From Sciscionella marina DSM 45152 (lineage in GTDB: Bacteria > Actinomycetota > Actinomycetes > Mycobacteriales > Pseudonocardiaceae), in contig NZ_KB905403.1 of assembly GCF_000379465.1 (NCBI RefSeq), positions 254,452 through 318,451 on the forward strand: a stretch of 64,000 bases of DNA, given 5' to 3'. Shown piece after piece: positions 16,484-32,512 of the stretch. Both the position numbers and the translations under genes were made by a program. The first letter of the stretch is position 1. Each line of letters opens with the position of its first letter. Below the pieces are notes generated by a model that worked only from the letters and a program-made list of their open reading frames with translations, had not been told where the DNA came from and made no database searches.

Positions 16484-16569
16484 CGATTCCCATCAGGTCC
16501 GGGGAGTGTGGGGAGAACTGTGTCGTGAGAACTACGGATTGTTTTGCAACTGGGGTCCTTGCTACAAGC

Positions 16570-16597
16570 ACTGTAGTGGCAACTACGATACTGTCAA
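16570..16597 (-). promoter_or_regulatory. Promoter with embedded palindrome driving the amino-acid importer operon
   Basis: On the minus strand a perfect TTGACA -35 (16597-16592) and TACAGT -10 (16575-16570) are 16 bases apart. The spacer holds GTAGT-GGCA-ACTAC (16573-16586), a palindrome that reaches into the -10. The divergent RpiR gene starts at 16623, so this is a likely RpiR operator repressing the operon and possibly the regulator itself. Confidence 0.6.
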
Positions 16598-16622
16598 TAG
16601 TTGTCGTGTAGACTTTCAAGCG

Positions 16623-17504
16623 ATGGACGAGATCTCGTTCGCCGAACGGGTGGACAACCACCGTGCTGCGCTTTCCCCTGCGGAGCTGCGGGTCGTCGAG
16701 TACCTGCGGGAACACGCGCACGACGCGCTCTTCGCGACCGCCGAGCAGCTGGGCAGGCTCACCGAGACCAGTGATGCGACGGTCGTGCGTACCGCGCGCA
16801 CCCTCGGTTACAACGGACTGCCCGAGCTCAAACAGCAGGTCGGCCGTTCACTGGTCGACGAGGTCCGTCCCTCGGTGCGGCTGCGCAGGCGCATCGAGCA
16901 CACCGGCGAGGATCATGATTCGACGCTGCGTTATGTGTTCGCCGAGGCAATCGAGCGGTTGCAGGAGACGCTGCGCCTGGTCGGCGAGGAGGATGTGGCC
17001 GCGGCGGTGGAACGGCTCACCGCGGCAGCCGAGACCTTCGCCTTCGGGGTCGGTGTTTCGGCGCTGTCCGCGCGGTACCTGGCCAAACGCCTCAACCGGC
17101 TCGGCCTGCGCGCGCACGACATCTCCGGTTCCGGTTTCCTGCTCGCCGACGAACTGCTCACGATCACCGGGGACGCCTGCATCGTGTTGTACGCGCCCGG
17201 CAGGATGCTGACCGAATGCGAGGTGCTGCTGCGCCGTGCCGAAACGGTGGGCGCCTCGGTCGTACTGGTCACCGATTCGCTCGAGGCGCGGCTGCGCGAA
17301 CGCGTCGGCGCCTGCCTGCAGGCCGTGCACGCGCCGAGCGGCAGCACCGGCGAATGCCTCGCGGCGATGACGGTCACCGATGCCGTCCTGCTCGCCGTGG
17401 CCGGACGCGATGAGGCGCGCGCCGAACGGACCTCCGAGCTGCTGACCGGGCTCCGTGAGCAGCTGGCCCCGGGCGCCAAGGACACCAAGCGCAGACAGCG
17501 CTGA
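16623..17504 (+). CDS. RpiR/MurR-family transcriptional regulator
   Basis: A 293-residue regulator: an N-terminal winged-helix domain (about 1-77; FATAEQLGRLTETSDATVVRTARTLG is the recognition region) and a C-terminal SIS sugar-isomerase fold (about 120-260). SIS domains usually bind phosphosugars such as MurNAc-6-phosphate. It is divergent from the ABC importer operon with 139 bases between starts and probably senses a product of that pathway. Its SIS region lacks an obvious phosphate-binding Ser/Thr cluster, so the ligand may not be a sugar phosphate. Confidence 0.85.
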   Translation: MDEISFAERVDNHRAALSPAELRVVEYLREHAHDALFATAEQLGRLTETSDATVVRTARTLGYNGLPELKQQVGRSLVDEVRPSVRLRRRIEHTGEDHDSTLRYVFAEAIERLQETLRLVGEEDVAAAVERLTAAAETFAFGVGVSALSARYLAKRLNRLGLRAHDISGSGFLLADELLTITGDACIVLYAPGRMLTECEVLLRRAETVGASVVLVTDSLEARLRERVGACLQAVHAPSGSTGECLAAMTVTDAVLLAVAGRDEARAERTSELLTGLREQLAPGAKDTKRRQR

Positions 17505-17562: not shown

Positions 17563-18630
17563 TCAGGAGTTCTTGGCGGCGACGACCCGGTAGGCGTTGG
17601 AGAATCCGCGGTCCTTGAACAGTTTCATCACCGCCCGGTCCACCACGACGGACAGCACGAACAGCGGGATGGCGGCGATGATCGCCGCGGAGCGCAGCAG
17701 CTTCCTTGCCCGCGAGGGGGTGGGGATCCAGGGCGCGTTCTCGCCGGTACGGGTGGCGTTGTTCAGCACCAGCCACAGGGACAGCGGCAGATCGTCGCAG
17801 CTGCGGGATTCGTCGCGCTGTTCGACGACCACGGTGGCCCCGAGTTCGGCGAGCGCGGTGCGCAGGTTTCCGATCGAGACGAAGTTCAGGTGCTGCGGCT
17901 GCATCCACGGCAGCCACCAGCGACCCAGGAACCGGTTCCACCGGCATTCCGGATCGGGTACCTCGATGACGAGGTGCCCGCCGGGACGCAGCATTCGCAG
18001 CGCGGACTTCAGGTGCGCGCGCGGATCGGAGGTGTGTTCGAGGTAGTGGAACATGCTCACCGCGTCGTAGCTGTCGGCGAGCTGTTCGGACAGTTCGGTG
18101 ATGTCCCCGCAGTAGCCCTTCTCGACCCGGCCTGCTTCCTCGGCCAGTTTGACGCCGTCGCTCAGGTCGAGGCCGTCGAATCGGGTTTGCGGGAACAGTT
18201 CCTTCGCGACCTGTGGGAAATGCCCGTGCCCGGTGCCGACATCCAGCCAGGTTTTGGGATCCATGACGGTTTTTCCCGCCTCGGCGCGGGACCGGTAACC
18301 CTTTTTGTTCTGTTCGAACACCGAGCCCATGTCCTGCTCGCCGAGGCCGTCGTAAAAGTCGCGGTAGTAGAACTCGAGGCCGGCATCGTTGAGCATCGGA
18401 TTCTGGAAGATGTGCCCGCATGCCGTGCAGCGGTCCAGGTTGAACCTGCCCGGTTTGAGCTGGACCACGTCGTTGGAACGCACGTGCCTGCGCAGTCGGC
18501 TGGATTCGCACCACGGGCAGGTTTCCCTGCGTGGCTCGAAGAATCGCTCGGTGCCGTCCGCGAGGTCAGCACGGTACACCGGCCGCCGTTCTTCAACCAT
18601 GGCCGCGTGTTCGGCTTTTTTCGAAGTCAT
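17563..18630 (-). CDS. SAM-dependent methyltransferase with zinc-finger-like head and membrane tail
   Basis: A 355-residue class I methyltransferase. An N-terminal four-Cys site (C38, C41, C68, C71; CPWC and CTAC) is followed by the SAM-binding loop VGTGHGH at 131-137, with SMFHYLEHTSDP and MLRPGGHLVIEVPDPE further on. Near the C-terminus (about 315-337) is a hydrophobic segment AAIIAAIPLFVLSVVV, so the enzyme is probably membrane-attached and suited to a lipid substrate. ATG 18630 overlaps the glycosyltransferase stop (ATGA), placing it last in the synthase operon. Whether it methylates a sugar, hydroxyl or carboxyl is unknown. Confidence 0.82.
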   Translation of the reverse strand: MTSKKAEHAAMVEERRPVYRADLADGTERFFEPRRETCPWCESSRLRRHVRSNDVVQLKPGRFNLDRCTACGHIFQNPMLNDAGLEFYYRDFYDGLGEQDMGSVFEQNKKGYRSRAEAGKTVMDPKTWLDVGTGHGHFPQVAKELFPQTRFDGLDLSDGVKLAEEAGRVEKGYCGDITELSEQLADSYDAVSMFHYLEHTSDPRAHLKSALRMLRPGGHLVIEVPDPECRWNRFLGRWWLPWMQPQHLNFVSIGNLRTALAELGATVVVEQRDESRSCDDLPLSLWLVLNNATRTGENAPWIPTPSRARKLLRSAAIIAAIPLFVLSVVVDRAVMKLFKDRGFSNAYRVVAAKNS

Positions 18631-19799
18631 AACGTTATCCTTCCGGTTACCTTGGCGGGGACTTCCGCCAGTTCTGCTGCTGCGGTGGGCGCTCCGCCCG
18701 CGGCCTGAAATGAGTCCCGGATGCGCAGCGCACTGTCTCGATAGGACGGTTCGGTGAGTACCTCGTCGATGGCCGCGCCGATCCGCTCGGCTCCGGATCT
18801 GGCGAACCGCAGACGTACCCCGGCCCCGGCCTCGACGACCTGTTTGGTGACGACGGGCTGATCGTCCCGGATCGGTGCGAGCGCGAGCGGTAGCCCGTGC
18901 CACAGCGTTTCGCACACCGTGTTGTGTCCCGCGTGGCAGACCACCGCGTCCACCTGCGGCAGCACGGAAAGCTGGGGAACGTGCCCGCGGACGAGCACGT
19001 GCGGCGGCTGCGGGCCGAGCACGCCGCCCGGGTCCACGATCACCGCCCGGATATCGCGCTCGGCCAGCGCCGTGGCGCACCGGGAGAGGAAGTCCCCGCC
19101 CGCGTCCACATTGGCTGTACCCAACGTGACGAGTACCGCGGGACGCTCGTCTTTCCAGGTATGCCAGGGAAAATCCGCGTCCGCGGGGCGCTCGGCGATG
19201 GACGGTCCGACGAACCGGACCGTCGGCTGGGGTTCGTGTTCCGGGCCGAGCAATGCCCGGGTCGTGAACGCGAGGACCAGTGTCGGGGAGAACTGCGGAT
19301 CGATGACCCGCGTGGCATGGCCGAACCGTGCCCACAGCCCGTCGAGCTGATCGCGTACCCAGGCTTCGATCTTGGGCAGGCCGATCAACGGGTCGTCGAA
19401 CGCGGCGGATGTGGTCGCCGAGGTCACCCACGGAATGCCGAGCTGCTCGGCGACCAGCGCACCGGCGAAGGCCTGCTGGTCCACCACGAGCACATCGGGA
19501 CCGAATTCCTCGACGGCCGCGAGCACACCGGGAACCATGGCTTCGCCGAGTGGAATGAGGAAACCCTCCCACAGGTAGCGGAGCGCTTCCACGTGCCGGA
19601 CCTGTGGCGGGCGCCGCCCCAGTACGACCTCGGTGCTGCAGTCGTAGATCGGATGACGGTCCCCGGCCAGGGTGCGCACCATCTCCGCATCGCCGACCCA
19701 GGCCACCTCGTGCCCCGCTTCGGCGAGACAACCGGCTACGCCGACGGTCGGATTGATGTGCCCGACCAGTGGGGGCACCACGAAAAGAAACCGGCTCAT
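18627..19799 (-). CDS. GT1-family (MGT-like) glycosyltransferase
   Basis: A 390-residue GT-B enzyme of family 1. It opens with FLFVVPPLVGHINPTVGVA, the acceptor-side glycine/histidine loop, and has VDAVVCHAGHNTVCETLWHGLPLALAPIRDDQP region near 285-310, the nucleotide-sugar binding motif. The type is that of macrolide, carotenoid and glycolipid glucosyltransferases. It is in the synthase operon between the thioesterase-like hydrolase and the methyltransferase, so it should add a sugar to the lipid/polyketide product. ATG 19799 gives the family's canonical first strand; longer readings add only low-complexity sequence. Confidence 0.88.
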   Translation of the reverse strand: MSRFLFVVPPLVGHINPTVGVAGCLAEAGHEVAWVGDAEMVRTLAGDRHPIYDCSTEVVLGRRPPQVRHVEALRYLWEGFLIPLGEAMVPGVLAAVEEFGPDVLVVDQQAFAGALVAEQLGIPWVTSATTSAAFDDPLIGLPKIEAWVRDQLDGLWARFGHATRVIDPQFSPTLVLAFTTRALLGPEHEPQPTVRFVGPSIAERPADADFPWHTWKDERPAVLVTLGTANVDAGGDFLSRCATALAERDIRAVIVDPGGVLGPQPPHVLVRGHVPQLSVLPQVDAVVCHAGHNTVCETLWHGLPLALAPIRDDQPVVTKQVVEAGAGVRLRFARSGAERIGAAIDEVLTEPSYRDSALRIRDSFQAAGGAPTAAAELAEVPAKVTGRITL

Positions 19800-19869
19800 C
19801 GCTCTCGTTCCCTGCGGGAGCTCGGCGCTTCGCGGTGGCGCTGTGCCGACAATTCGCTCGCAGGCTCGC

Positions 19870-20706
19870 TCATCGCGTGTGCTCCCCTTCTGATTCCGGC
19901 GCGCCCACCGCACTGTGCTGCGGCCGGTGCCGGTTGATCCACGGCACCATCAGTTCGCGTACCGACTGCGGTGCCTCGGCGAGCACCGAGTGATCCCTGC
20001 CCTCGATGATCGCCACCTTGCAGGAGGGAAGTAACCGGGGCAGCCAATCGGCCACCTGGACCAGATCCGATTCACTGCCGAAGATGGCCAGGACCGGGCA
20101 ACCGATCGCGGCGAGTTCCGCTTCGCCGAGCAGCGGACCGCGCGGGATCTCGCTGGCCATCGTGGTGGCGGTGAAGATCTTGCCCGCGGCCACGCTGCGC
20201 CGGGCGGTGTGCGCGCCGCGATTCTCGCTGATCCAGTTCAGCACATCGGGATGCAGCAGGTGATCGGTCGCATTGCCGAGCAGTTCGCGCAGTTTCACCG
20301 ACCAGGCCCCGGTCGCGGGCTCCGATTCGATGACGACCAGGCTGGCGACCCGTTCCGGATAGCGGTGCGCGAAGCTGAACGCGACCGTGCCCCCGAAACA
20401 GTTGCCGACCAGGTGCACGGGTCCGGTGATCGCCAGCTCGTCCAGCAGCCCGGCGAGGTCCGCGACGGTGTCCCCCAGGGTGTAGCCCTGTGCCGGGCGC
20501 TCGCTTTTGCCGTGACCGCGCAGATCGTAGGTCACCACATGGAAACCCGCGGACGCGGCGGGCGCACCGAGCGTGAAGTAGAAGCTGGCCAGGCTGTCCC
20601 AGCCGAGGCCGTGGATGAACACCACGGTCGGCTGCTCCGGCTCGGTGGATTTCGCGGCCAGCCGTTGCACGTGCAGGCGGGCACCGTTGGCGGTGACGAA
20701 CGGCAT
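19870..20706 (-). CDS. Alpha/beta hydrolase with Cys nucleophile, probable product-release thioesterase
   Basis: A 278-residue hydrolase: oxyanion HGLGW at 32-36, YDLRGHGKSERP, and the nucleophile elbow GNCFGG with Cys103 in place of the usual Ser. FGSESD and GRDHSVLAEAP supply Asp and His. Cys-for-Ser elbows occur in dienelactone hydrolases, PHA synthases and some polyketide thioesterases. Three bases separate it from the ACP gene upstream. The most economical role is releasing or transferring the chain from the synthase; the Cys would favour acyl transfer over hydrolysis. The role is inferred from position. Confidence 0.78.
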   Translation of the reverse strand: MPFVTANGARLHVQRLAAKSTEPEQPTVVFIHGLGWDSLASFYFTLGAPAASAGFHVVTYDLRGHGKSERPAQGYTLGDTVADLAGLLDELAITGPVHLVGNCFGGTVAFSFAHRYPERVASLVVIESEPATGAWSVKLRELLGNATDHLLHPDVLNWISENRGAHTARRSVAAGKIFTATTMASEIPRGPLLGEAELAAIGCPVLAIFGSESDLVQVADWLPRLLPSCKVAIIEGRDHSVLAEAPQSVRELMVPWINRHRPQHSAVGAPESEGEHTR

Positions 20707-20709
20707 CGG

Positions 20710-21054
20710 TCAGTGCTCCTCGCCACCGAGCCGGCGCACGATGTAGGTGACCAGATCGCCGACGGTCAGTGCGATGATCGCCTCGAGGTCGAGCTCGGCG
20801 GCGAACTCGGCGAAGTTCACCTTGTCCCCGTACCGTTCGGTGAGCAGGTTGCCGAGCATCACCAGGTCGATGCTCTCCATGCCGAGGTCCTCGTGGAAGG
20901 TGTCCGCCATACCGACCTCGGTCGCGGTGAGCTCCATATCCTCCAGCACCTGCGCCAGCATGTCCGCGATCTCGGCGAGCACCTCTTGTTCGTCGGCCAC
21001 CGTGGCCAGTTCGCTCTCGGTCATGACGTCCTGCCTTTCAGATGTGCTGTTCAT
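20710..21054 (-). CDS. Stand-alone acyl carrier protein
   Basis: A 114-residue ACP: an acidic helical domain with EDLGMESIDLVMLGNLL, in which Ser61 is the phosphopantetheine site, then a four-helix remainder ending in LTVGDLVTYIVRRL. An N-terminal extension of about 25 residues precedes the domain; ATG 21024 would remove ten of these. ATG 21054 overlaps the stop of the second synthase protein (ATGA). It is distinct from the DSIKR-type ACP inside the larger synthase and may receive the finished chain or carry a starter. Confidence 0.9.
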   Translation of the reverse strand: MNSTSERQDVMTESELATVADEQEVLAEIADMLAQVLEDMELTATEVGMADTFHEDLGMESIDLVMLGNLLTERYGDKVNFAEFAAELDLEAIIALTVGDLVTYIVRRLGGEEH

Positions 21055-24000
21055 GCCTCGTCGGTGGTCCAGGTGACCAGGTAGTCGCGGTCCGCGCGCC
21101 AGGGATCGGTCACCCGCGCGTATTCCGGGTGTTCCGCCGTGAATCGGGTCTCGGCCACGGATTCGGTGACCGGCTCGATGCCGATCCCGCGATCGCTGCC
21201 CGCCGGACCGGCGATGGCCACGGCGACCTCCCCACTGTGTGCCGCGCGGACATCCAGTTGGGGGAGCGGATCACGGCAGACCCCGTGCACCACGGCCTGG
21301 CCGTCCGCGTGCTCGCGCACCCCGATCTCGGCGGGGTACAACGGCCCCCATCCGTTGTCCCACAACCAGATGCGTGCCGCGTCCTTGATCGCGATCCGGT
21401 GCAGCAGCCAGGCGCGCCGTTCCCGCGGTGGCAGGCTGTCGTACTCCTCGCGCTCGCCGAGGCCGAGATGGTTGCGCAGCACGAGTTCGCGGCTGGCCAG
21501 ATCCGTCCAGTGCTCGGAAAGCAGCACCCAGCCACCGTTCTGGCGCCGGGAAAGCGTGTTGCGTTCGGGCCACCGTTCCACGACGACCGTCTGCGGTGAG
21601 TTGTCGAACCGCCGATCGGTCCAGTCGCCGAACTCCGCCCACACCCGGCCGTCGATGGACAGCTGCGCTTCGGCGACCACGGTGGTGTCGGTGACGGCGG
21701 TGATCCGGACCGTGCAGTGCAGCCGTTTCCCGGGCTGGGGATGCGGGCCGTGGAACCGGATCCGGCTCAACCGTGCGGGAAAGACCGAGGCGCGGCTGGG
21801 CAGGGTGGCCACCACCCAGTAGCCGAGCACCTGGCCGACATTGTCCAGCAGGGCGCCGGGTGCCTCCGGCGTGAGCAGTACCGCCCGGGCATGCCGTGCA
21901 CCGATCGCGAGCAGTTCCACGACCCCCTGGAACCGGGGCCCGTGGAACATCCACCGCCTGGTGTAGAGCTCGGCCGCGGTCATCTCCGGGGCGCGCTCCT
22001 CGGCCGGTTTCGGCCAGGCGGCCGGGGATTCCGCGGGGTGCCGTTCGGCGAGTTCGGCCACCAGGCTCGCGTGCTCGCCGATCCGCACCTCCATCAGGTT
22101 GTCCCCGACGGGGCGGCCGGTCACCGGGAGCTCGGTGGCGGGAATGGCCGTGATCCACCGGTTCAGCACGACATCGCGCAGGCCGATCACCACGCGGCCG
22201 GGCGCGGCCTGCTCGACGAGCCGCATCAGGTGCTGGATCATCGTGGTGGCGGGCAGCACCGGGAACTGGTCGGCGAGTTCGGGCCAGTCCGCGCGCTGCC
22301 GGAAGAAGCAGTGATCGAGCAGGTACGGCATGCCCTCGACGGACACCCGCAGCTGCGTGCTGAATTCCCGGAGCGTGGCCGGGGAGGTGTGCTGTCGCGC
22401 CGCCAGCACGGTGCCGACGGTGTCCGCGGTCTCGTGCAGCAGGGCCCGGAATTCCGCCGCCATCGGGGAGCTGGCGGCCACAGCGTCCAATGCGGACGAA
22501 TCGGACAGTCCGCTGGTGCGCGGGGTACTGAGCAGCGAACGCAGCGAGTCCCGGGTGGGGGTGTCCAGGGCGACCGTGGGGCTGCCGAGGTTCAGCCGCA
22601 TCGAGTGCCGTGGCCCGGTGCCCGCGGATTCCAGTGCTGCCACGGTGTCCGGGCCACCGGCTGCCCATACCGCGGCGGCCACCCTGCGCAGCTGGGCCAT
22701 CCCGGTCCGGCGTCCGGAGCTCGCCGCGACCGCGAGGTGTTCGCAGTCCTGCAGGGTGTCCGTGACCAGCGAGGTGAGCTGCCCGGTCCCGGCCTGCACG
22801 AACACCCGGTATCCCGCCTGGTACATCGCGGTGATCAGCTGCCGGAACCGGACCGGTTCGAGCAGGTGTCGGACGAACAGTTCGCGCACCGCGTCGGCGG
22901 ATTCCGGATACGGTTCCGCGGTGGTCGCCGACCAGATCGGCACGCTCGGCCGGTGCAGTTCCAGGCGGTCGGCGTTCTCCCGGATCGGGCCGAGATAGGG
23001 CGCCAGCATCGGGGTGTGGAAACCCGAACGGAACGGCAGCACCTGGCACATCACCTGGTGTGCGCGGAATTCCGTCACGAAGGCGTCCACCTCCGCGGCC
23101 GGTCCGCACACCATCGACTGGTTGGGCGCGTTGTCGTGGGACAGCGTGATGCCCGGGTGTTCGGCGAGCGCTTCGCGTACCCGTTCGGCCGAGGTTCCGA
23201 TCGCCGCGAAGGCCACATCGGGCATCCTCAGCGAGTCGGGATCATAGGTGTCGAGGAATTCGTCGATGGCCTCCGCGCGGTGCAGTCCGCTCGCGGTCAT
23301 CGCGGTCCATTCACCGATGCTGTGCCCGGCAACCCCGTCCGGGGTGATCCCGATCTTGCGCAGCACGCCGTCCAGCGAGCGGCCGAGCTGGGCCACCGCA
23401 TGTCCGTGCCGCCCGGTGTTCCCGACCAGCGAGCCGCCCGTGTCGAAGGTGAACCCGAAGCGGCGCGCCACATCCTCGACGTTCGGCGTGAACTCCGCTT
23501 CCAGCCCGGGGAACAGATAGGCCAGTTTCCCGCCGTCACCGAGCAGCGGCGCGGGATAGAACCAGACATCGTTGCGGCCGCGCCAGGAACGGGTATCGCC
23601 GGCCCGGCCGAGCAGCTTGCGGGCCAGTGCGAGCCGTTTCTTCGTCGGGTCCACAATGGACAACCTGCTCGGACCGGATCCGGTTGCCGTGCCACGGATC
23701 TCGGCGTCCTCGCGGTCGAGCACCCCGGCGAGCGCGTGCGGATCCGGCGCGGCGAGCCGCAGCACCTGCTCCGGTTCGGTGACCGTGATGCGTGCCCGTG
23801 CCGCGGCGTGCGCGTGTTCCTCGAGCACCACGTGTGCGTTGATACCGCCGAAACCGAAGGCGTTCACCGCGGCCCTGCGTGGTCCGTCCGCGTCCCAGGG
23901 CCGGGCGGTTTCGGTCGGCCGGAACCGGGTTTCGGCCAGCTGTGGGTGCGGATCGGTGCAGTGCAGGGTGGGCGGCAGCGTCCGATGGTGCACGGCGAGG

Positions 24001-25181
24001 GCGGCTTTGATCAGTCCCGCGATCCCCGCGGCGGGCATGGTGTGCCCGATCATCGACTTCACCGAACCGATCACCGCGGGCTCGCCCGCGCCGAACACGG
24101 TGGCGAGCGTGGCCAGCTCGGTGCCGTCCCCGGCCGGGGTCGCGGTGCCGTGTGCCTCGAGCAGTCCGACCGAATCGGGCTCGGCGGGGTCCAGTCCGGC
24201 GCGCTCCCATGCCTGGCGCACCGCCCGCACCTGACCGCCGTGGTCCGGATTGAGCAGACTCGATCCCTTGCCGTCGCTGGAAACCCCGCTTCCCCGGAGC
24301 ACCGCGTAGATCCGGTCGCCGTCCCGTTCGGCGTCGGCGAGCCGCTTGAGCGCTACGACCCCGGTGCCCTCGCCGATGAGGATGCCGTCCGCGTCCCGGT
24401 GGAACGGGCGGATCCGTTCGCTGCGGGACAGTGCCCCGAGTTGGGCGAACACGCTCCAGAAGGTGATGTCGTGGCAGTGATGCATGCCGCCGGCGAGCAC
24501 CAGATCGCAGCGGCCACTGTGCAGCTCGCCGATCGCCTGGTCCACGGCGACCAGGGAGGACGCGCAGGCGGCGTCCACGGTGTACGCGGGGCCACCGAGA
24601 TCCAGCCGGTTCGCGAGCCGGGACGCGGCGAGGTTGGGTATCAGCCCGATCGCCGATTCGGGTTGGTTCGATCCCAGTTGCGTGCTGAATGCCCCGCGCA
24701 CCTTGTCGAGCTGGGCGGGGCTCAGTTCGGGAAGCAGTTCGCCGAGGGTGTGCACCAGCTGACCGGCGATGCGCACCCGCTGGTTGTACCGGGCCATGCT
24801 GGGGCCGATGTAGCCGCCGCGGCCGAGAACCACGCCGATCCGGTCTCGCTCGGGCAGCCGCTCCGCACCGCCGCTGTCCTCGATCGCCTGCGCCGCGACG
24901 TGTAGCGCGATGAGCTGATCGGGTTCGGTATCGGCGACCGAGTTCGGCATGATCCCGAACCTGGTCAGGTCCACCTCGGCGTGTTCGTCGATGAACCCGC
25001 CGCGGCGGCAGTAGACCAGTTCGGCCGCGTCCTCCGGGTGATCGCGCTTGGTGGTGTCCCAGCGACCGACGGGGACCTCGGTGATCGCGTCCACCCCGGC
25101 GCACAGGTTGGCCCAGTAGGAGTCCAGGTTTCCGGACCCCGGGAAGAGCGCTGCCATACCGACGATGGCCACACCGGTCAT
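21051..25181 (-). CDS. Iterative PKS/lipid synthase, KS-AT-DH-PPTase-like (PfaC/PfaE-like fusion)
   Basis: A 1376-residue multidomain protein. KS at about 1-450 has active Cys in DAACASS (about 205) and His in EAHGTATPAGD and IGHTMPAAG. AT at about 530-830 has GHSIGEW (Ser near 620) and FRSGFHTPM. DH at about 930-1200 is a double hotdog with LLDHCFF (His near 957) and LLDNVGQVLGYW. The last 140 residues look PPTase-like: IAIKDAARIW near 1267, HSGEVAVAIAG, then IGIEP near 1334. That motif order is permuted relative to Sfp, and the metal-binding GID is GIE. No ACP or KR is present, so it must work with the protein encoded just upstream (7-base gap). Domain types match PfaC/PfaB/PfaE of polyunsaturated lipid synthases. 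Confidence 0.85.
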   Translation of the reverse strand: MTGVAIVGMAALFPGSGNLDSYWANLCAGVDAITEVPVGRWDTTKRDHPEDAAELVYCRRGGFIDEHAEVDLTRFGIMPNSVADTEPDQLIALHVAAQAIEDSGGAERLPERDRIGVVLGRGGYIGPSMARYNQRVRIAGQLVHTLGELLPELSPAQLDKVRGAFSTQLGSNQPESAIGLIPNLAASRLANRLDLGGPAYTVDAACASSLVAVDQAIGELHSGRCDLVLAGGMHHCHDITFWSVFAQLGALSRSERIRPFHRDADGILIGEGTGVVALKRLADAERDGDRIYAVLRGSGVSSDGKGSSLLNPDHGGQVRAVRQAWERAGLDPAEPDSVGLLEAHGTATPAGDGTELATLATVFGAGEPAVIGSVKSMIGHTMPAAGIAGLIKAALAVHHRTLPPTLHCTDPHPQLAETRFRPTETARPWDADGPRRAAVNAFGFGGINAHVVLEEHAHAAARARITVTEPEQVLRLAAPDPHALAGVLDREDAEIRGTATGSGPSRLSIVDPTKKRLALARKLLGRAGDTRSWRGRNDVWFYPAPLLGDGGKLAYLFPGLEAEFTPNVEDVARRFGFTFDTGGSLVGNTGRHGHAVAQLGRSLDGVLRKIGITPDGVAGHSIGEWTAMTASGLHRAEAIDEFLDTYDPDSLRMPDVAFAAIGTSAERVREALAEHPGITLSHDNAPNQSMVCGPAAEVDAFVTEFRAHQVMCQVLPFRSGFHTPMLAPYLGPIRENADRLELHRPSVPIWSATTAEPYPESADAVRELFVRHLLEPVRFRQLITAMYQAGYRVFVQAGTGQLTSLVTDTLQDCEHLAVAASSGRRTGMAQLRRVAAAVWAAGGPDTVAALESAGTGPRHSMRLNLGSPTVALDTPTRDSLRSLLSTPRTSGLSDSSALDAVAASSPMAAEFRALLHETADTVGTVLAARQHTSPATLREFSTQLRVSVEGMPYLLDHCFFRQRADWPELADQFPVLPATTMIQHLMRLVEQAAPGRVVIGLRDVVLNRWITAIPATELPVTGRPVGDNLMEVRIGEHASLVAELAERHPAESPAAWPKPAEERAPEMTAAELYTRRWMFHGPRFQGVVELLAIGARHARAVLLTPEAPGALLDNVGQVLGYWVVATLPSRASVFPARLSRIRFHGPHPQPGKRLHCTVRITAVTDTTVVAEAQLSIDGRVWAEFGDWTDRRFDNSPQTVVVERWPERNTLSRRQNGGWVLLSEHWTDLASRELVLRNHLGLGEREEYDSLPPRERRAWLLHRIAIKDAARIWLWDNGWGPLYPAEIGVREHADGQAVVHGVCRDPLPQLDVRAAHSGEVAVAIAGPAGSDRGIGIEPVTESVAETRFTAEHPEYARVTDPWRADRDYLVTWTTDEA

Positions 25182-25188
25182 TCCCGGC

Positions 25189-28100
25189 TCACCAACCCGA
25201 AGCGGTGTACACCACCGCGTTGTTGCCCTGCTCGCCCCAGGCCAGCTCGCGCAGCAGCGCGAGCACGCCCTCCTCGGGGTCGATCAGCCGGATACCGCGC
25301 CTGTCGTACTCGCGCATCAGCTCTCGCGTGACCATGCCGTCGTGGTTCCCGGTGGCCGCCCACGGTCCCCAGTGGACGGTCAGCGCACGGTTCCCGGTGC
25401 GTGCCGCCCAGTTCGCGCCGATCGTCTCCAGGGCGTCATTGGCGGCTGCGTAGTCGGCCTGGCCACGGTTGCCGTACACCGCGGCGATGCTGCCGAAGAA
25501 CACGGTGAACGAAGGCTTGGTGTCCAGACTGGTCAGCTCGTCGAGCAGGGCCCGCGCGCCGCCGACCTTGGTGTCGTACACCCGGCTGAAGGATTCGAGG
25601 TCCTTCTCCGCGATCAGCCGGTCGGCGAGCACCCCGGCGGCGTGCACCACGCCATCCAGCCTGCCGTGTTCCGCGTGCACCTGCTTGACCAGGCTGGCCA
25701 CCGCGTTGCCGTCCCGGACATCCAGGGTGTGGTACTCGGCATCGGAACCGAGCGCGCGGAGTTCGGCGAGGGTACCGGAAACCTCGCGCTGAGCCAGGAT
25801 TCTGGACACCTCGCGCTCGACATCGGCCGGGCTGCGTACCCCGGTTCGGATCACCGCGCTGCGCAGTTCGGCCGGGGTGGTCGCGGCGGCGATCGCGGGA
25901 TCCTCGGGACCGTCCGGCGGCGGGGTGCGCCCGGCGAGGTGGATCCGGCACTGGCTGCTCACGGCGAGCAGACCGGCGAACCGGGCGGTGATCCCGCGGC
26001 CGCCACCGAACAGCAGTACGACCGAATCCTGGTCGAGCCCGATCGCCCGCGCCTCGCTGACCCCGGTGCCCGCGGGCCCGGATCCGTTGGTGGCCAGGGC
26101 ACCGAGCGAGGCCTCGACCGGTTCGAGGCCGTACCGATCCGATCCCGAGCGCCGCACGACCGGGGCCGGTTCGGGGCGGCACAGCTCGTCTGCCACGGAA
26201 GCGGCCAGCTCCGCCGGTGCCGTCTCCGGATCGAGCTCCACCAGGCGTGCCAGGGTGTCCGGGTATTCGCGCGCCACGGTACGGAAGAAGCCACGTAGCC
26301 CGGCCGAGTGCCCGGCGCCGCCATCCGGGCCGAGTGCGATCAGCCACCGGGCACCGTTGCCCAACGCGGTGCGGTACAGCGGAAACGCCTCGGGGAGCGC
26401 CTCGGTGTCCACATCGGACAGGTGACCGGCGTGGATCAGTCCGTCGACGTGTTCGCTTGGTTCCTGGTCCGCGGCGCCCCGCAGCAGCTCGGCGCCGTGA
26501 CGGGCAAGTTCGCTGCCGAGCGCTTCGGCGAGCCGGTCCTCACCCACGAACAGGAACCGCTTGTCCGGCAAGGAATCCGGCGCACCGGTCGCGGCGGTCA
26601 GTGGTACCTGACGCAGCTCGAATCTGCGCGGGGCCTCACCTGTGACCGGCTCCGGGGCTTCCTCGGTGACGGGCTCCGCGGTTTCCGGTTCGCCGTCGAG
26701 CCGTTCGGTGAGCCAGGATGTGATGGCCGCGATGCTGCGCGCCTTGGTGAGTTCTTCCATCTGCTCATCGGCCAGGGTGCCCTGGATGCCGAGCCGGGTG
26801 CCGATCTCTCCGGCGATCTCGGCGCGCTTGATGGAGTCGATGGAGAGGTCCGCTTCCAGATCGAGCTCGGGTTCGATCATCTCGGCTGGGTAGCCGGTGC
26901 GGTCCGCGATGACGCCGAGGACCACGGCGGGAATGTCGGCGGCCGGTTGTGGTTCGGTGTGCTGTTCGGCAGCGGTTTTCGTTGCCGCCGGGGCCGGAAT
27001 GCTCTCCACCGTGGGCAGTTCCGGGTTCGGTGCGGGGACGGCGTCGAGAGTGGGCCGGGGTGCGGCGGTTCCTGCGGCGGGGCCGAGATAACTCAGCAGG
27101 ACATCCCGTTGCGCGTTGACCATTTCCCTACTGCTGCGCAGGAATTCGGCTATCAGCGCTTCCGGATCGCCTGGACTGCCGTTGGAGGGGCGGGATGAAA
27201 ACACGGTGTTCTCCTGTATACGGCGTGCGGGAGCCAGTGCACCGGCCGGAATCTCCCCGGAGGCGTTGCGCACCAGCTGGCCGTTGACTGTCCACTGTGG
27301 ATTTTTGGTTCGGGTGGCCGTTTCCGGGTCCACCGCGCCGCGACCGTCCACCAGCCACGCGGTGCGCGGTTCGGCTCCGGCAACGGCGAGCTGGGCGAGC
27401 GCGAACAGCAGGTCGGTGATGTCCCCGCGGCGGCCCGGCTGGGTCGTGATCATCCGGTGTGGACGGTCCTTGAGGATCTTGGCCACGAACCCGCTGAGCA
27501 CCGCTCCGGGCCCGGTTTCGACGAACACCCGCACCCCGGCCGTGTACATCGACTCGATCTGCTCGACGAACCGCACCGGATTGGCCAGTTGCGCGGCCAG
27601 TTCGGCGCGGATCGATTCCGGCCGATCGGGGTAGGTCTTGGCGGTTCGGTTGGCGTACACCGGAATCTCGGGCTCATGTACCGGCTCCCCGGCGAGCGTC
27701 GCGGCGAAGATCCGTTCGCTCTCGGCGACGAGCGGGCTGTGGAACGCGCAGGCGACCGGGATCCGTTTGGCGCCGAGCCCGCTTTCCCGGAATCGGTGCA
27801 CCGCCTGCTCGATCGCCTCGGCCGGTCCGGAGATCACGGTCTGTTCCGGGGCGTTGTGGTTGGCCACCACGACCTGCTCGGTGAGCCCGAACTCGGCCAG
27901 TGACAGCGCGACCTTCTGGTGCGCCGCGGAGACCGCGGCCATCGCGCCCGGTTCGTCGCCGACCGAGTCCAGGATGGCCTCGGCGCGCCGTTTGCTCAGT
28001 GCCACCAGGGATTCCGGCTCGATCGCGCCCGCCGCGGTGAGCGCGACCAGTTCACCGTAGCTGTGCCCGGCGACGACCGAAGGCGTGACCCCGGCCCGGC

Positions 28101-31100
28101 CGAGCAGTTCGTGCACCGCCAGCCCGGTGATCCCGAGCACCGGCTGCGCAACCCTGGTATCGGTGATCCGTTCCGTCTGCGCGGCACGCCCTTCGGCATC
28201 GAAGGCGGTCGCCGGGTGCAGCAGGTCCGCCAGCTCCTCGCCGAGTTCCAGATAGTGGTGCAGCTCGGGGAACGCGACGAACAGCGCGGCGAGCATGCCG
28301 ACCCGTTGACTGCCCTGCCCGGGGAAGAGGAAGGCCAGTTCGCCCTCGGGTTGCCGGTCTTCGGCGCGGAACAGGCCGGCGGCCGGATCGTGTTCCCCGG
28401 CCAGCGCGCGGTGCAGTAGCTCGGTGAGGTTGCCGGGATCGGTGGCGACCACGGCGATCCGCACCGGTGCGGTCTGCGCGTCGGTGCGCAGTGCGGTGTT
28501 CAGCGCGAAATCCCGGAGCCGCCCGGTTTCGTCGGCCGCCAGCAGATCCAGCAGCTGCCGCACCGAGCGCTGCGCTGCCTCCTCGCTCGCACCACGGAAC
28601 ACGAACAGCTCGGCGGGCCAGTCCGGCAGCGCGTGCGAGGGCGGCGGTCCCTCGTGACCGCGCAGTACGACGTGGAAGTTGGTGCCACCGAACCCGAACG
28701 CGCTGATCCCGGCGACCCGCTCGCTCGGCGCGGTCGCCCACGGACGCGCCTCGGTGTGGAAGGCGAACGGGCTTTGCTCCGGATTCCAGGACGGGTTGGG
28801 TTCGCTGAGGTTCAGCGTCGGCGGGCGGATTCCGGTGTGCAACGCGAGTGCAGTCTTGACCAGACCGGCCAGGCCTGCCGCACATTTGGTGTGCCCGATC
28901 TGCGATTTCACCGAGCCGAGCACACAACCACCCGGCCGGGCACCCGCCTCGGTGAACATCTCGGTCAGGGTGGCCAGTTCGGTGCGGTCACCGACCACGG
29001 TCCCGGTGCCGTGCGCTTCGATCAGCTCGACCTCGGACGGGGCGATGCCCGCGTTGCGGTAGGCGCGCTCCAATGCGGCGCGTTGCCCTTCCGGCCGGGG
29101 CGCGGTCAGGCCGAGGGATTTGCCATCGCTTGCCCCGCCGACCCCCTTGATCACGGCGTAGACCCGGTCGCCGTCGCGCTCGGCATCGGCGAGCCGTTTC
29201 AGCACGAGGCAGGCCACACCCTCGCCGAGCGCGATGCCGTCGGCGGACTGGTCGAAGGTGCGCGATCTCCCGGTCGGGGACAGTGCCTGCACCGAGGAGA
29301 ACAGCAGATAGTCGTTGATGCCGTTGTGCAGATCCGCGCCACCGCACAGCACCATGTCGCTGCTGTGCGTGGCGAGCTCCTTGCAGGCGATGTCCACGGC
29401 GGCAAGGGAAGACGCACAGGCCGCGTCCACCGTGTAGTTGGTGCCGCCGAGATCGAGCCGGTTCGCGATGCGCCCAGCGATCACATTGGCCAGCGCCCCG
29501 GGAAAGGAATCCTCGGTCAGCTCCGGCAGTTGCCCGGCCAGCTCCTCCGGCAGCTCGCCGAGATAGGCGGGCAACACGGTGCGCAGCACGGATGCGTTGG
29601 ACAGATCGCTGCCCGACTCGGCACCGAACAGCACCGAGGTCCGTGCCCGGTCGAACACGCGGTCGGCGTAACCCGCATCGGCGAGCGCCCTGCGCGCCGA
29701 CTCCAGCGCGAGCAGCTGCACCGGCTCGATGCTGCCGAGTGCCGAGGGCGGAATCCCATAGCTGAGCGGATCGAACGGGATCTCCGGCAGGAATCCGCCC
29801 CATTTCGAGGATGTGGTGCCGGGTTCGCCGTTCTCGGAGTAGTAGATCCGCGGATCCCAGCGTTCCCCCGGAACCTCGGTGATCGAGTCCACGCCGCGCA
29901 GCACATTGGACCAGAAAGTGTCCAGATCCGGCGCGCCGGGCAGCATCGCCGCCATCCCGACCACGGCGATGTCCACCGGCTCGGGTACGGCGGATTCGGC
30001 CGTACCGCCGAGCGTTTCCCGCAGCCGCGCCGCGCGCTCGCCGAGGAACGCGGCCGCCCGCTCGGTCACCGTGCCGTGCAGTTCGGCGATCGTGGTCACC
30101 CCCGCGCGCAGCCTGGCGACTTCGCCCGCCATGAAAAGGCCCTCGCCGCGTTGGCGTGCTTCGCCGACCTCGACGAGTTGTTCGCCGCGGCGTTCGATTC
30201 CCTTGCTGGCGATCCGCAGCCGCCCGACGTTCAACTGTTCCAGCCGCTCCCACAGTTCGCGGCCGGTGACCCCGTTTCCCCGCAGTTCGTCTTCGGTTGC
30301 GTGGAAGTCCTCGGTGAACGGGCCGCTGACGCATCTGGTCGCGTGGCCGGGCGCGGTTTCCAGCAGGTCGGTCCGCTCCGCGCCGAGCACCTGCTGCTGG
30401 AACAGCGGCCGGATCGCGCCGTGTGCCACGGCTTCCTCGGTGAACAGATAGGCGGTGCCCATCAGCACTCCGACCGCGACCCCCCGCGCGGCCAGTGGTG
30501 CGGTCAGCGCGGCCACCATCGCCGCGGACCGCTCGTCGTGAATACCGCCGGCGAACAGTACCTGGAGTTCACTCGCCTGCTGCCCGTTGTGCTCCAGGAA
30601 TTCCTCGAGCACCGCGAGCTGCGCTTCCCACAGGGTGAAGCTGTTCTTCGGCCCGATGTGCCCGCCGCACTCGGCGCCCTCGAAGACGAACTTGCGCGCG
30701 CCCGCGGCGAGGAACTGGCTCAGCAGTCCGGGCGAGGGCACGTGCAGGAAGGTGGCGATGCCCGCGTCCTCGATCGCGGCCGCCTGGGTCGGCCGCCCGC
30801 CCGCGATGATCACGTGGCTCGGCCGCTGCTCCCGGATGACCTCGAGCTGCGCGGTCCGCGTCCGCTCGTCGGCGAAGCCGAGAATGCCGACGCCCCAAGG
30901 CCGATCGCCCACCTGTTCCCGGGTGCGCCGCAGGATCGCGCGGGACTGTTCGGCGGTGGAAAGAGCGAGCGCGATGCACGGCAGCCCGCCCTGGGCGGCG
31001 ACCGAGGCGGCGAAATCCGCCTCATCGCTGACCCTGGTCATCGGGCCCTGCACGACCGGAAGCCGGGTGCCGAGTGCCCGGCTCAGCGCCGAACCGGGGC

Positions 31101-31917
31101 GCAGCGCGTCGGCCGAACCCGGGTGCGCCGCTTCCTCGATCGCCGTGCGGACCGCCCGGATGGCGTTGCCGATGTCCTGGTGTCGGCGGGCGAATCCGGC
31201 GGCAAGACAACCGTCCTGGCCGACGGCGATCGGTTCCCCGACCGCCTGACTGTGCAGCACCTGTCTGCCGTTCTCGGCCACCGGTTCCGAACCGTCCATG
31301 GTGCGCAGTGCCTTGGCCACCGCGACCGGTAGCCGCACCTCGGCGAGCAGTGCGAGCTGGCTGTCCAGGACCACCCCGGCGGCGCCACCGAGCACCGCGG
31401 CGGCCGCGGTGTGCGGACCGATACCGCCCGCCGCCCACACTCCGACGGCAACCCGCTCGTCCGCGAGCAGTTGCTGGAGCAGGACGAAGGTGCTGAGTTC
31501 GCCCGCCCTGCCGCCGCTTTCGCTTCCCCGTGCGATGAGCCCGTCCGCGCCGGATTCGACGGCCGCCACCGCTTCGTCCAGGCTGACCACTTCGACCAGG
31601 ACCCGCCTGCCGGTCAACTCCTCGGTGCGCCAGCTCGCATCGGCGGTGAGTACGACCGTGTCCACGCTTTTCGCGTCGCACAATGCGGTGAATTCGTCCA
31701 CCGAAAGAGTGCAGTCGCCCGAGACGCGCACGCCGATCGCGCCTGGCGCCCAGCGCATCGCCTGCGCGAGTGCCCGCCTGGAACGCCGGCCACTCGCGCC
31801 GAGATCGAGCACCCCCAGCTCGCCCGCTGCGCACACCGCTGCCACAAATCGCGGATCCGGTAGCCCGAACGGGCAAATACCAATGACGAACCCACCCTTT
31901 GAGGATATGCCTGGCAA
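25189..31917 (-). CDS. Iterative PKS/lipid synthase, (NMO-like)2-KS-AT-ACP-KR (PfaD/PfaA-like fusion)
   Basis: A 2242-residue protein. Two nitronate-monooxygenase-like TIM barrels come first (about 10-230 and 290-620); the second has FEGAECGGHIGP, as in PfaD-type enoyl reductases, while the first has ESGGR at the matching place. KS (about 645-1090) has Cys in DAACASS (about 832), EAHGTGT and IGHTKCAAG. AT (about 1200-1510) has GHSYGE (near 1283) and AFHS. One ACP (about 1655-1735) has LSIDSIKRAEI, the DSIKR signature of polyunsaturated-fatty-acid synthase ACPs. KR (about 1780-2242) has GGGRGIT and SIAAVYGNRGQADYAAAND. The start is TTG 31917: GGGGAG lies six bases upstream and no in-frame ATG/GTG precedes the first conserved strand. 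Confidence 0.88.
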   Translation of the reverse strand: MPGISSKGGFVIGICPFGLPDPRFVAAVCAAGELGVLDLGASGRRSRRALAQAMRWAPGAIGVRVSGDCTLSVDEFTALCDAKSVDTVVLTADASWRTEELTGRRVLVEVVSLDEAVAAVESGADGLIARGSESGGRAGELSTFVLLQQLLADERVAVGVWAAGGIGPHTAAAAVLGGAAGVVLDSQLALLAEVRLPVAVAKALRTMDGSEPVAENGRQVLHSQAVGEPIAVGQDGCLAAGFARRHQDIGNAIRAVRTAIEEAAHPGSADALRPGSALSRALGTRLPVVQGPMTRVSDEADFAASVAAQGGLPCIALALSTAEQSRAILRRTREQVGDRPWGVGILGFADERTRTAQLEVIREQRPSHVIIAGGRPTQAAAIEDAGIATFLHVPSPGLLSQFLAAGARKFVFEGAECGGHIGPKNSFTLWEAQLAVLEEFLEHNGQQASELQVLFAGGIHDERSAAMVAALTAPLAARGVAVGVLMGTAYLFTEEAVAHGAIRPLFQQQVLGAERTDLLETAPGHATRCVSGPFTEDFHATEDELRGNGVTGRELWERLEQLNVGRLRIASKGIERRGEQLVEVGEARQRGEGLFMAGEVARLRAGVTTIAELHGTVTERAAAFLGERAARLRETLGGTAESAVPEPVDIAVVGMAAMLPGAPDLDTFWSNVLRGVDSITEVPGERWDPRIYYSENGEPGTTSSKWGGFLPEIPFDPLSYGIPPSALGSIEPVQLLALESARRALADAGYADRVFDRARTSVLFGAESGSDLSNASVLRTVLPAYLGELPEELAGQLPELTEDSFPGALANVIAGRIANRLDLGGTNYTVDAACASSLAAVDIACKELATHSSDMVLCGGADLHNGINDYLLFSSVQALSPTGRSRTFDQSADGIALGEGVACLVLKRLADAERDGDRVYAVIKGVGGASDGKSLGLTAPRPEGQRAALERAYRNAGIAPSEVELIEAHGTGTVVGDRTELATLTEMFTEAGARPGGCVLGSVKSQIGHTKCAAGLAGLVKTALALHTGIRPPTLNLSEPNPSWNPEQSPFAFHTEARPWATAPSERVAGISAFGFGGTNFHVVLRGHEGPPPSHALPDWPAELFVFRGASEEAAQRSVRQLLDLLAADETGRLRDFALNTALRTDAQTAPVRIAVVATDPGNLTELLHRALAGEHDPAAGLFRAEDRQPEGELAFLFPGQGSQRVGMLAALFVAFPELHHYLELGEELADLLHPATAFDAEGRAAQTERITDTRVAQPVLGITGLAVHELLGRAGVTPSVVAGHSYGELVALTAAGAIEPESLVALSKRRAEAILDSVGDEPGAMAAVSAAHQKVALSLAEFGLTEQVVVANHNAPEQTVISGPAEAIEQAVHRFRESGLGAKRIPVACAFHSPLVAESERIFAATLAGEPVHEPEIPVYANRTAKTYPDRPESIRAELAAQLANPVRFVEQIESMYTAGVRVFVETGPGAVLSGFVAKILKDRPHRMITTQPGRRGDITDLLFALAQLAVAGAEPRTAWLVDGRGAVDPETATRTKNPQWTVNGQLVRNASGEIPAGALAPARRIQENTVFSSRPSNGSPGDPEALIAEFLRSSREMVNAQRDVLLSYLGPAAGTAAPRPTLDAVPAPNPELPTVESIPAPAATKTAAEQHTEPQPAADIPAVVLGVIADRTGYPAEMIEPELDLEADLSIDSIKRAEIAGEIGTRLGIQGTLADEQMEELTKARSIAAITSWLTERLDGEPETAEPVTEEAPEPVTGEAPRRFELRQVPLTAATGAPDSLPDKRFLFVGEDRLAEALGSELARHGAELLRGAADQEPSEHVDGLIHAGHLSDVDTEALPEAFPLYRTALGNGARWLIALGPDGGAGHSAGLRGFFRTVAREYPDTLARLVELDPETAPAELAASVADELCRPEPAPVVRRSGSDRYGLEPVEASLGALATNGSGPAGTGVSEARAIGLDQDSVVLLFGGGRGITARFAGLLAVSSQCRIHLAGRTPPPDGPEDPAIAAATTPAELRSAVIRTGVRSPADVEREVSRILAQREVSGTLAELRALGSDAEYHTLDVRDGNAVASLVKQVHAEHGRLDGVVHAAGVLADRLIAEKDLESFSRVYDTKVGGARALLDELTSLDTKPSFTVFFGSIAAVYGNRGQADYAAANDALETIGANWAARTGNRALTVHWGPWAATGNHDGMVTRELMREYDRRGIRLIDPEEGVLALLRELAWGEQGNNAVVYTASGW

Positions 31918-32512
31918 AGAAGTCTCCCCGTTTCATCGATCGCAGTTGACGACGCTACCAGTCAACGTGACGCGGAAAGCGGACTCTACCACCATTGTTT
32001 GATGGATACGACACGATCGTCTGTCTCCCCAAAAGCCGTGTAGACAGCAACCATTGCAAGGGGAAAAAGGATCGATGAACAATACACCGATAGTGTGACG
32101 TCGATCGGTCTGCCGAATTTTCCATTCTGCCTTGTTGGTAAATGAGTGGGCGTGCTTCAGAGCTCAAGCATCCTGGCTCTGGTGGCACGAATGTGCTTCG
32201 ATAGCTGAGTGTGAGGGAAACTCTTCGGTACTCACTCCAAAGTGTCGCGTCGTCGACGAGTGGGGCTTTCGGAATGCCGGTTCGGTGTCCCGAATCGAAA
32301 TGCACAGAGTTTCACTGGTCGTTCTACTAGTCGTTGCGTGCAGCCGGTTCGGCCGGACTTTGCCTGGCATTATTGGCACCGATGTCTGACACACAAGAAC
32401 TGATTCGGGCCCGCTTGGCTCGCACTGTCCCTTGGGGACGGTGACGGCGCGGTTCGGTTGTACGAACACGATGCCGATGACGCGGTGCTGCGACAGTAGC
32501 TCCGCCTGGGGG
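31918..32512. other. AT-richer intergenic region upstream of the synthase operon
   Basis: About 600 bases without a convincing gene; base composition is visibly closer to 50% GC than the roughly 70% of the neighbours. It should hold the synthase promoter. Short frames in it (for example 32132-32389 plus, 31955-32305 minus) lack ribosome-binding sites and recognisable sequence. Apart from the palindrome at 31945-31966, I see no named element. Confidence 0.5.
31945..31966 (-). promoter_or_regulatory. Palindrome ahead of the synthase operon start
   Basis: GTTGAC-N10-GTCAAC, a perfect 6-bp inverted repeat whose inner edge is 28 bases upstream of the TTG start. It could be a repressor operator or a leader hairpin just ahead of the ribosome-binding site. 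No dedicated regulator gene lies beside it. Confidence 0.4.

Follow-up and report, generated by a model that had tools for sequence, protein, structure and literature searches.

A probable secondary-lipid operon in the Sciscionella marina DSM 45152 genome

The Sciscionella marina DSM 45152 genome probably encodes a self-contained secondary-lipid operon of the actinobacterial "Type M" kind, in which an iterative synthase would give rise to a glycosylated and, in this species, methylated long-chain hydroxy acid. The six genes of the operon, designated A to F, are co-directional on the minus strand, from position 31917 to position 17563 of a 64,000-nucleotide stretch of contig NZ_KB905403.1 (the window) as read from its open reading frames (ORFs); coordinates are positions in the window unless another sequence is named (Table 1). 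The two large proteins consist of ketosynthase (KS), acyltransferase (AT), acyl carrier protein (ACP), ketoreductase (KR), dehydratase (DH) and enoyl reductase (ER) domains, with the remnant of a phosphopantetheinyl transferase (PPTase) at the end of B, and are followed by a free ACP, a hydrolase, a glycosyltransferase (GT) and a methyltransferase (MT).

A sequence-only reading of this DNA had described A as (NMO)2-KS-AT-ACP-KR with a DSIKR-type ACP, and both points were borne out: Pfam matched A to NMO (two stretches), KS, AT, ACP and KR, and the ACP carries DLSIDSIKR. B matched KS, AT and PS-DH, and C to F matched PP-binding, alpha/beta hydrolase, UDPGT/EryCIII-like GT and Methyltransf_23, respectively. 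The KS of A by itself reached an E-value of 6e-64 in Pfam, far beyond chance, and a motif scan found the KS, AT, ACP, KR and DH motifs intact in the window as well as in almost every relative.

Distribution and mobility

A genome scan with B confirmed 115 relatives, of which 80 loci were kept (numbered with the prefix L), the nearest being that of Sciscionella sediminilitoris (L009), with a B that is 93% identical. The ACP is present in 76 of these loci, the hydrolase in 77, the GT in 79 and the MT in 35. Genes A-B-C-D-E are found in this order on one strand in 73 of the 80 loci, 32 of which carry the MT on that strand as well; the recount behind these figures demands an A upstream of B (L038 and L078 have none), the earlier best match to A in some short contigs having been a cross-match to the KS of B, and several of the seven loci without the A-E order are short contigs. 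The genera represented include Streptomyces, Amycolatopsis, Umezawaea, Actinosynnema, Actinophytocola, Actinomadura, Kibdelosporangium, Rhodococcus and Lolliginicoccus, among others. A B-like match (E 1e-200 or better) was present in 4 of 296 evenly drawn actinobacterial genomes, host included, a figure that covers B alone, and at least 80% of A was present in 2 of 72,556 plasmid records. The linear plasmid of Streptomyces NBC_00984 (L097) has all six genes annotated in the same order. The cassette thus has a scattered distribution and, in at least one case, a plasmid location.

The combination of genes had not been recognised from the sequence alone, but it is not new: the order A-B-ACP-hydrolase-GT in 73 loci and the complete plasmid copy led to rejection of uniqueness to the host genome, and the core resembles a type published in 2011. 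On the plasmid, IS3-type transposase genes flank the operon (L097, 29800-31037 and 3443-4695), at about 1 kb on the downstream side and about 9 kb on the upstream side. The B genes of Rhodococcus rhodnii NRRL B-16535 (L068) and Kibdelosporangium aridum (L069) are near-identical, with branch lengths of 0.015 and 0.034, pointing either to mislabelling of a strain or to very recent transfer.

A probable iterative lipid synthase

The phylogeny of the KS domains was examined in a tree of 56 rows that included 16 of the 70 rows of KS-A, 14 of the 77 rows of KS-B and the plasmid pair. KS-A grouped with PfaA-type KSs (rows of Persicobacter, S. globosus, R. opacus and Azospirillum) at 100/99, KS-B formed a separate clade of its own at 100/100, and the PfaC KSs formed a distinct clade (100/99) with KS-B outside it. 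The modular KSs of the host genome fell elsewhere, with one long-branched host-genome KS row landing among them, and neither KS-A nor KS-B lies inside the modular clades, a placement that would have refuted the sequence-only reading.

No chain-length factor was found, B having one KS stretch by Pfam versus two in the PfaC-like controls (L102 and L103), and no FabA-like dehydratase was found at the end of B at E-values up to 1, versus 2e-37 and 1e-40 in the same two controls; in S. globosus and Persicobacter, PfaC-like proteins have two KS stretches plus FabA. Identity as a synthase of eicosapentaenoic or docosahexaenoic acid (EPA/DHA) is ruled out because both features are missing, and A and B together are best read as an iterative secondary lipid synthase in manner of working. 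The activities of PfaA, PfaB/C, PfaD and PfaE had all been attributed to the two proteins; the PfaA-type KS, the enoyl reductase and the lipid/iterative character stand, whereas the PPTase is lost and there is neither a chain-length factor nor a FabA-type dehydratase/isomerase, so that B, with its KS outside the PfaC clade, is equivalent to PfaC only in part. Counts for A are based on 70 rows, namely the window and 69 of the 80 loci, after removal of sequences no longer than 2050 aa and of L038, L040, L049 and L084. The window has a single ACP; across the 70 rows, a strict motif finds two or three in 22 and none in 3.

Tandem enoyl reductase barrels

Judged by its residues, the first of the two NMO-type barrels of A is a degenerate enoyl reductase and the second an intact one. 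The two are recognizably related, a profile comparison giving a probability of 94% (E 1.2e-7, 182 columns) versus 0.9% and 0.3% in control comparisons with the KS and KR of A. FabK/NMO enzymes have a catalytic His; at its position barrel 1 has Arg in 51 rows, Pro in 15, Ala in 1, Val in 1 and a gap in 2, with His in none of the 70, whereas barrel 2 has His in 68, Pro in 1 and a gap in 1. The same pattern, His absent from barrel 1 and present in barrel 2, recurred in all 4 of the other fusions compared, namely the plasmid homologue and three from alphaproteobacteria. Barrel 1 is conserved, with invariant residues across the 33 rows of its alignment (alignments A1, of 33 rows, and A2, of 32 rows, cover part of the loci), and its ratio of nonsynonymous to synonymous substitution rates (dN/dS) between the two Sciscionella species is 0.20, higher than the 0.06 of barrel 2. 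Barrel 1 would most likely serve the active barrel as its tethered partner in a dimer.

Loss of the phosphopantetheinyl transferase

In most homologues of B the C-terminal part is a canonical PPTase that carries the motifs GIDxE and KEAxxK. Among 77 rows (76 of the 80 loci plus the window; sequences of 1300 aa or less were dropped), KEAxxK is intact in 65 and both motifs in 63 by regular expression; two patterns for the PPTase motifs each gave 65 of 77 while disagreeing on L046 and L057. In the alignment, the window and S. sediminilitoris have GIGIEP in place of the first motif and a deletion of the KEAxxK segment. No match to a PPTase was found at the end of the window B in Pfam or NCBIfam even at E-values up to 1; the Pfam ACPS domain scored 53 bits in an intact homologue (L010) and a sub-threshold 12 bits in L068, and was not found in the window or L012. 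The PPTase-like (PfaE) activity that had been ascribed to B is therefore rejected, the catalytic segment being deleted and the profile match missing where the positive control L010 has one; what is left is a remnant. Loss of the PPTase accounts for at least five changes on the tree of B, three of them forced by well-supported branches.

Because the built-in PPTase is gone from both Sciscionella sequences, the ACPs would have to be activated in trans. Repeated loss of this kind shows how self-sufficient synthases may come to depend on a cellular activator. The host genome yielded 61 matches to the KS N-terminal domain but a single protein with an ACPS domain, and no activator of the Sfp type was recognised in it.

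Tailoring genes and exporters

The genes downstream of the synthase were compared across 78 rows for D and for E, 77 for C and 36 for F, window included in each. The nucleophile of hydrolase D is Ser in 73 rows, Cys in 4 (the window among them) and Gly in 1. The Cys nucleophile noted from the window alone is thus real (GNCFGG) but a local substitution, and was rejected as a diagnostic trait of D. The RDDQP donor motif of the GT is kept; its best matches in the Protein Data Bank (PDB) are 10zg (glycosyl transferase) and YjiC glucosyltransferases that use uridine diphosphate (UDP) sugars, its nearest NCBIfam family is that of the macrolide GTs, and the sugar transferred may be glucose.

Downstream of the GT, the 80 loci have the MT (35), an ATP-binding cassette (ABC) and/or major facilitator superfamily (MFS) transporter (25), only a GDSL hydrolase (2) or none of these (12); in 5 the contig ends too soon and in 1 the GT had no match. 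A locus was scored as having an exporter when either of two tblastn queries, one ABC and one MFS protein, had any match (E up to 1e-25) no more than 2.5 kb from the GT. The MT and the exporter are mutually exclusive, but this exclusion was rejected as independent evidence: a single change on the tree of B explains it, in a reconstruction with 33 MT and 25 exporter rows and 19 unclassed rows left out. In L068, an open stretch of about 260 aa (16119-16900 of that locus; no Pfam match), hydrophobic in places, runs in frame into the MT, and open frames ahead of the MT were also noted in L058, L061, L063, L069-L071, L077 and L079.

Predicted pathway and product

A and B would act as one iterative synthase, with the ATs loading malonyl units, KS-A and KS-B condensing them, and the KR, the DH and the second NMO barrel reducing the beta-carbon to chosen degrees, so that a chain growing on the ACP of A could retain some hydroxyls. 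The chain, perhaps passed to the free ACP, could be released or esterified by D; E could then transfer a sugar to it from a nucleotide donor (UDP-glucose-like), and the membrane-tailed F could methylate the sugar or the carboxyl. A glycosylated, methylated lipid or short polyketide had been proposed from the sequence alone; the KS tree argues for the lipid/iterative synthase, and glycosylation and methylation can fairly be expected from the conserved GT and from the presence of the MT. That 25 of the 80 loci have an exporter no more than 2.5 kb past the GT also counts in favour of the proposed pathway.

Several observations weigh against it. The KS tree contained no HglE or enediyne references, and the position of KS-B beside the PfaA group and KS-A was weak (92/53). 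The best NCBIfam match of A is PfaA, but at 916 bits (900 for the plasmid homologue) it falls below the cut-off of 1010 bits, which is passed by the reference rows of S. globosus (2081), Persicobacter (2170), R. opacus (1706) and Azospirillum (1298) and, unlike A, by the Methylosinus and Beijerinckia fusions (1055 and 1156). The MT is on the opposite strand in 2 of the 35 loci that have it (L046 and L052), which makes F a looser part of the cassette. As for an activator in trans, the ACPS-domain protein (C86:123600-123923) is the only one that the host-genome search returned, and no 4PPT_N domain was found in that search; 4 of 13 genomes searched have this domain, neither the host nor the same-genus genome being among them.

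A monoglycoside resembling the heterocyst glycolipids is a possible but doubtful alternative, in which a long hydroxylated chain would be released by D as a thioesterase only, receive one sugar and be deposited in the cell envelope. The logic of an iterative synthase with a dedicated GT is shared by HglE and HglT as presented in the sections of PMC11804610 drawn on here, although the hgl island of Anabaena described there is far larger, with 19 genes of which 14 were shown to act. The hydrophobic tail of the MT agrees with such a product, whereas the many MT-less loci that have an ABC or MFS exporter instead do not.

A bolder proposal, and an unlikely one, is that the cassette is the pathway of the actinomycete macrocyclic glucolipids, namely the fattiviracins, the cycloviracins and the macroviracins, the last presumably belonging with the other two, beside which they appear in a listing of names. 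A and B would then make long polyhydroxy chains, E would glucosylate their hydroxyls, D would join two glucosyl-acyl units in a macrodiolide ring and F would add the 2-O-methyls of the cycloviracins, while unmethylated compounds of the fattiviracin kind would come from the branch that has exporters and no MT. As a type of product this class fits unusually well. In the portions of PMC4365757 covered, both fattiviracins and cycloviracins are dimers built from glucosylated trihydroxy fatty acids (C22-C28 in a table, up to C33 in the text for cycloviracins), and cycloviracins have 2-O-methyl groups on their non-cyclic glucoses. The producers belong to Streptomyces and Kibdelosporangium, both genera with the cassette, and K. 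aridum and K. philippinense (L070), which have the MT form, share their genus with the cycloviracin producer K. albatum. The single GT argues against this proposal, up to five glucoses having to be transferred; the literature passages covered give no gene cluster for macrocyclic glucolipids. Glucolipsin A, recognised by mass formula in an Actinokineospora/Rhodococcus coculture in the part of PMC7918646 covered, is a weak lead that was not used; in the A. keratiniphila paper its name is confined to the references.

It is improbable that the same iterative pair makes a glycosylated polyene or short polyketide antibiotic by a logic like that of the enediyne synthases. Enediyne polyketide synthases (PKSs) have the domain order KS-AT-ACP-KR-DH-PPTase, which is matched by the KS-AT-ACP-KR of A and the DH-PPTase (remnant) of B, and the affinity of the GT to the macrolide family would agree; however, the conserved pair of enoyl reductase barrels argues for reduced chains, and the ten neighbouring ORFs scanned include no deoxysugar genes. 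Decay of the Sciscionella cluster after loss of the PPTase is very improbable: although the catalytic segment is deleted and no other tested part of A or B has a dN/dS as high as that of the remnant (0.34), the remaining motifs searched for are intact, the other tested domains have values of 0.02-0.22, and other lineages have lost the PPTase and kept the rest. For all six genes, dN/dS between the two Sciscionella species is 0.10-0.33, and two neighbouring control genes gave 0.158 and 0.225. With assignment to an iterative pathway for a glycosylated long-chain hydroxy acid, a compact, scattered lipid pathway for which no product was found in the literature searched would gain a structure hypothesis and a small set of genes for heterologous expression.

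Gene boundaries, leader and neighbourhood

The description of the genes as one overlapping operon needs to be narrowed, for overlap occurs at only 2 of the 5 junctions: B/C and E/F share ATGA, and gaps of 7, 3 and 70 bases separate A from B, C from D and D from E. Gene E most likely starts at the ATG at 19799 rather than at the upstream GTG at 19913.

Table 1. Features of the operon and its leader in the window.
Feature	Coordinates	Strand	Description
Leader	31918..32060	-	5' leader/promoter region of operon, from identity to S. sediminilitoris
Gene A	25189..31917	-	pseudoER-ER-KS-AT-ACP-KR, 2242 aa; TTG start behind GGGGAGA
Barrel 1 of A	31273..31917	-	NMO-type TIM barrel, residues 1-215; His to Arg (GSESGGR); predicted pseudo-enoyl-reductase
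Barrel 2 of A	30238..31092	-	FabK/NMO-type enoyl reductase, residues 276-560; catalytic His present (GAECGGH)
KS-A	28660..29973	-	PfaA-type; intact Cys-His-His
AT-A	27376..28332	-	motifs GHSYGE and AFHS
ACP of A	26728..26925	-	single; DLSIDSIKR
KR of A	25357..26022	-	
Gene B	21051..25181	-	KS-AT-DH and degenerate PPTase, 1376 aa
KS-B	23817..25175	-	own clade; intact Cys-His-His
AT-B	22713..23378	-	motifs GHSIGE and GFHTPM
PS-DH of B	21609..22322	-	PKS-type dehydratase, not FabA-like; intact His and Asp/Gln motifs
PPTase remnant of B	21054..21464	-	GIDxE replaced by GIGIEP; KEAxxK segment deleted
Gene C	20710..21054	-	free acyl carrier protein; Ser in GMESIDL
Gene D	19870..20706	-	alpha/beta hydrolase; Cys nucleophile in GNCFGG
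Gene E	18627..19799	-	GT1/MGT-family glycosyltransferase; RDDQP donor motif
Gene F	17563..18630	-	S-adenosylmethionine-dependent methyltransferase; N-terminal CxxC...CxxC, hydrophobic C-terminal segment

Upstream of A, 100-base blocks spanning 31901-32150 are 94-99% identical to S. sediminilitoris; the mean for the first part of A is 93.4%, with 7 of 56 blocks reaching 97% or more, and further upstream, beyond the leader, identity drops to 66-88%. The leader is thus conserved about as well as the best stretches of A and well above the sequence further upstream. Rfam gave 0 matches in it, and a 21-base motif from it was found in 1 of 104 loci, that of S. sediminilitoris. Ten neighbouring ORFs were scanned; their matches include an RpiR-type regulator, a beta-lactamase-like protein, transport parts and enolase-superfamily enzymes, and no sugar-nucleotide enzyme was found among them. 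The gene with the RpiR-family helix-turn-helix (16638-16853, plus strand) is convergent with the end of the operon and lies beside the transport and beta-lactamase-like genes.

Comparison with known systems

Twenty types of secondary lipid synthase were defined by Shulse and Allen in 2011 (PMC3098273). In the parts of that paper covered, Type M has members in Actinosynnema mirum, Frankia, Renibacterium and S. avermitilis, its product is unknown, and a PPTase is usually associated with it; the parts of PMC13291983 covered liken a fused pfaDA + pfaBC-PPTase arrangement to the Renibacterium locus. The core of the operon fits Type M by description, being likewise actinobacterial with a fused pfaDA + pfaBC core in which B is KS-AT-DH (a definition taken via those parts of PMC13291983), and differs in having only a remnant of the PPTase; the nearest sequence compared was that of Actinosynnema pretiosum (L033). 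Thus, the core of the cassette is already known, although no product has been published in the literature searched, and words beginning with "glycosyl" occur 0 times in PMC3098273. No match to a characterised cluster or product was found in the literature searched, which leaves the sequence-only reading unrefuted on that count.

The PfaABCDE synthases of EPA/DHA resemble A in their PfaA-type KS-AT-ACP-KR and in an enoyl reductase of NMO/FabK fold. The operon differs from them in the absence of a chain-length factor and of a FabA-like dehydratase/isomerase, in a single ACP instead of a tandem array, in the lack of a working PPTase and in its score under the PfaA cut-off. The heterocyst glycolipid synthase of the hgl island, compared by description, likewise combines an iterative KS-type synthase with a GT, but the island differs in gene set and size in the sections of PMC11804610 covered.

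The plasmid-borne DA fusions of Methylosinus (L098) and Beijerinckia (L099) resemble A in having a pseudo-ER and an ER followed by KS-AT. A DH-PPTase protein of these loci is homologous to the end of B (26% identity), and ABC transporter and GT genes lie nearby, as at many loci of the window type; they differ in having KAS III genes beside the fusion and a separate DH-PPTase with intact motifs, and in having no hydrolase or MT annotated in the cassette. These loci (L098, 13884-25460; L099, 13209-30958) form an alphaproteobacterial sister system of the pseudo-ER/ER-KS-AT fusion.

A description of fused pseudo-ER/ER domains was not found in the literature passages covered. The polyunsaturated fatty acid synthase of thraustochytrids, as presented in the sections of PMC13311796 covered, resembles A in that two unequal NMO-type enoyl reductases, ERb and ERc, belong to one synthase as a heterodimer (PDB 9SDD) in which ERb requires ERc for folding. 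Both of these bind flavin mononucleotide and are separate proteins, whereas A has its two barrels fused one after the other, the first of them devoid of the catalytic His, so that the heterodimer may serve as a parallel for the fused pair and not as proof. The presence of a fused pseudo-ER/ER pair in two phyla offers a natural model of an inactive reductase possibly supporting an active one in iterative synthases.

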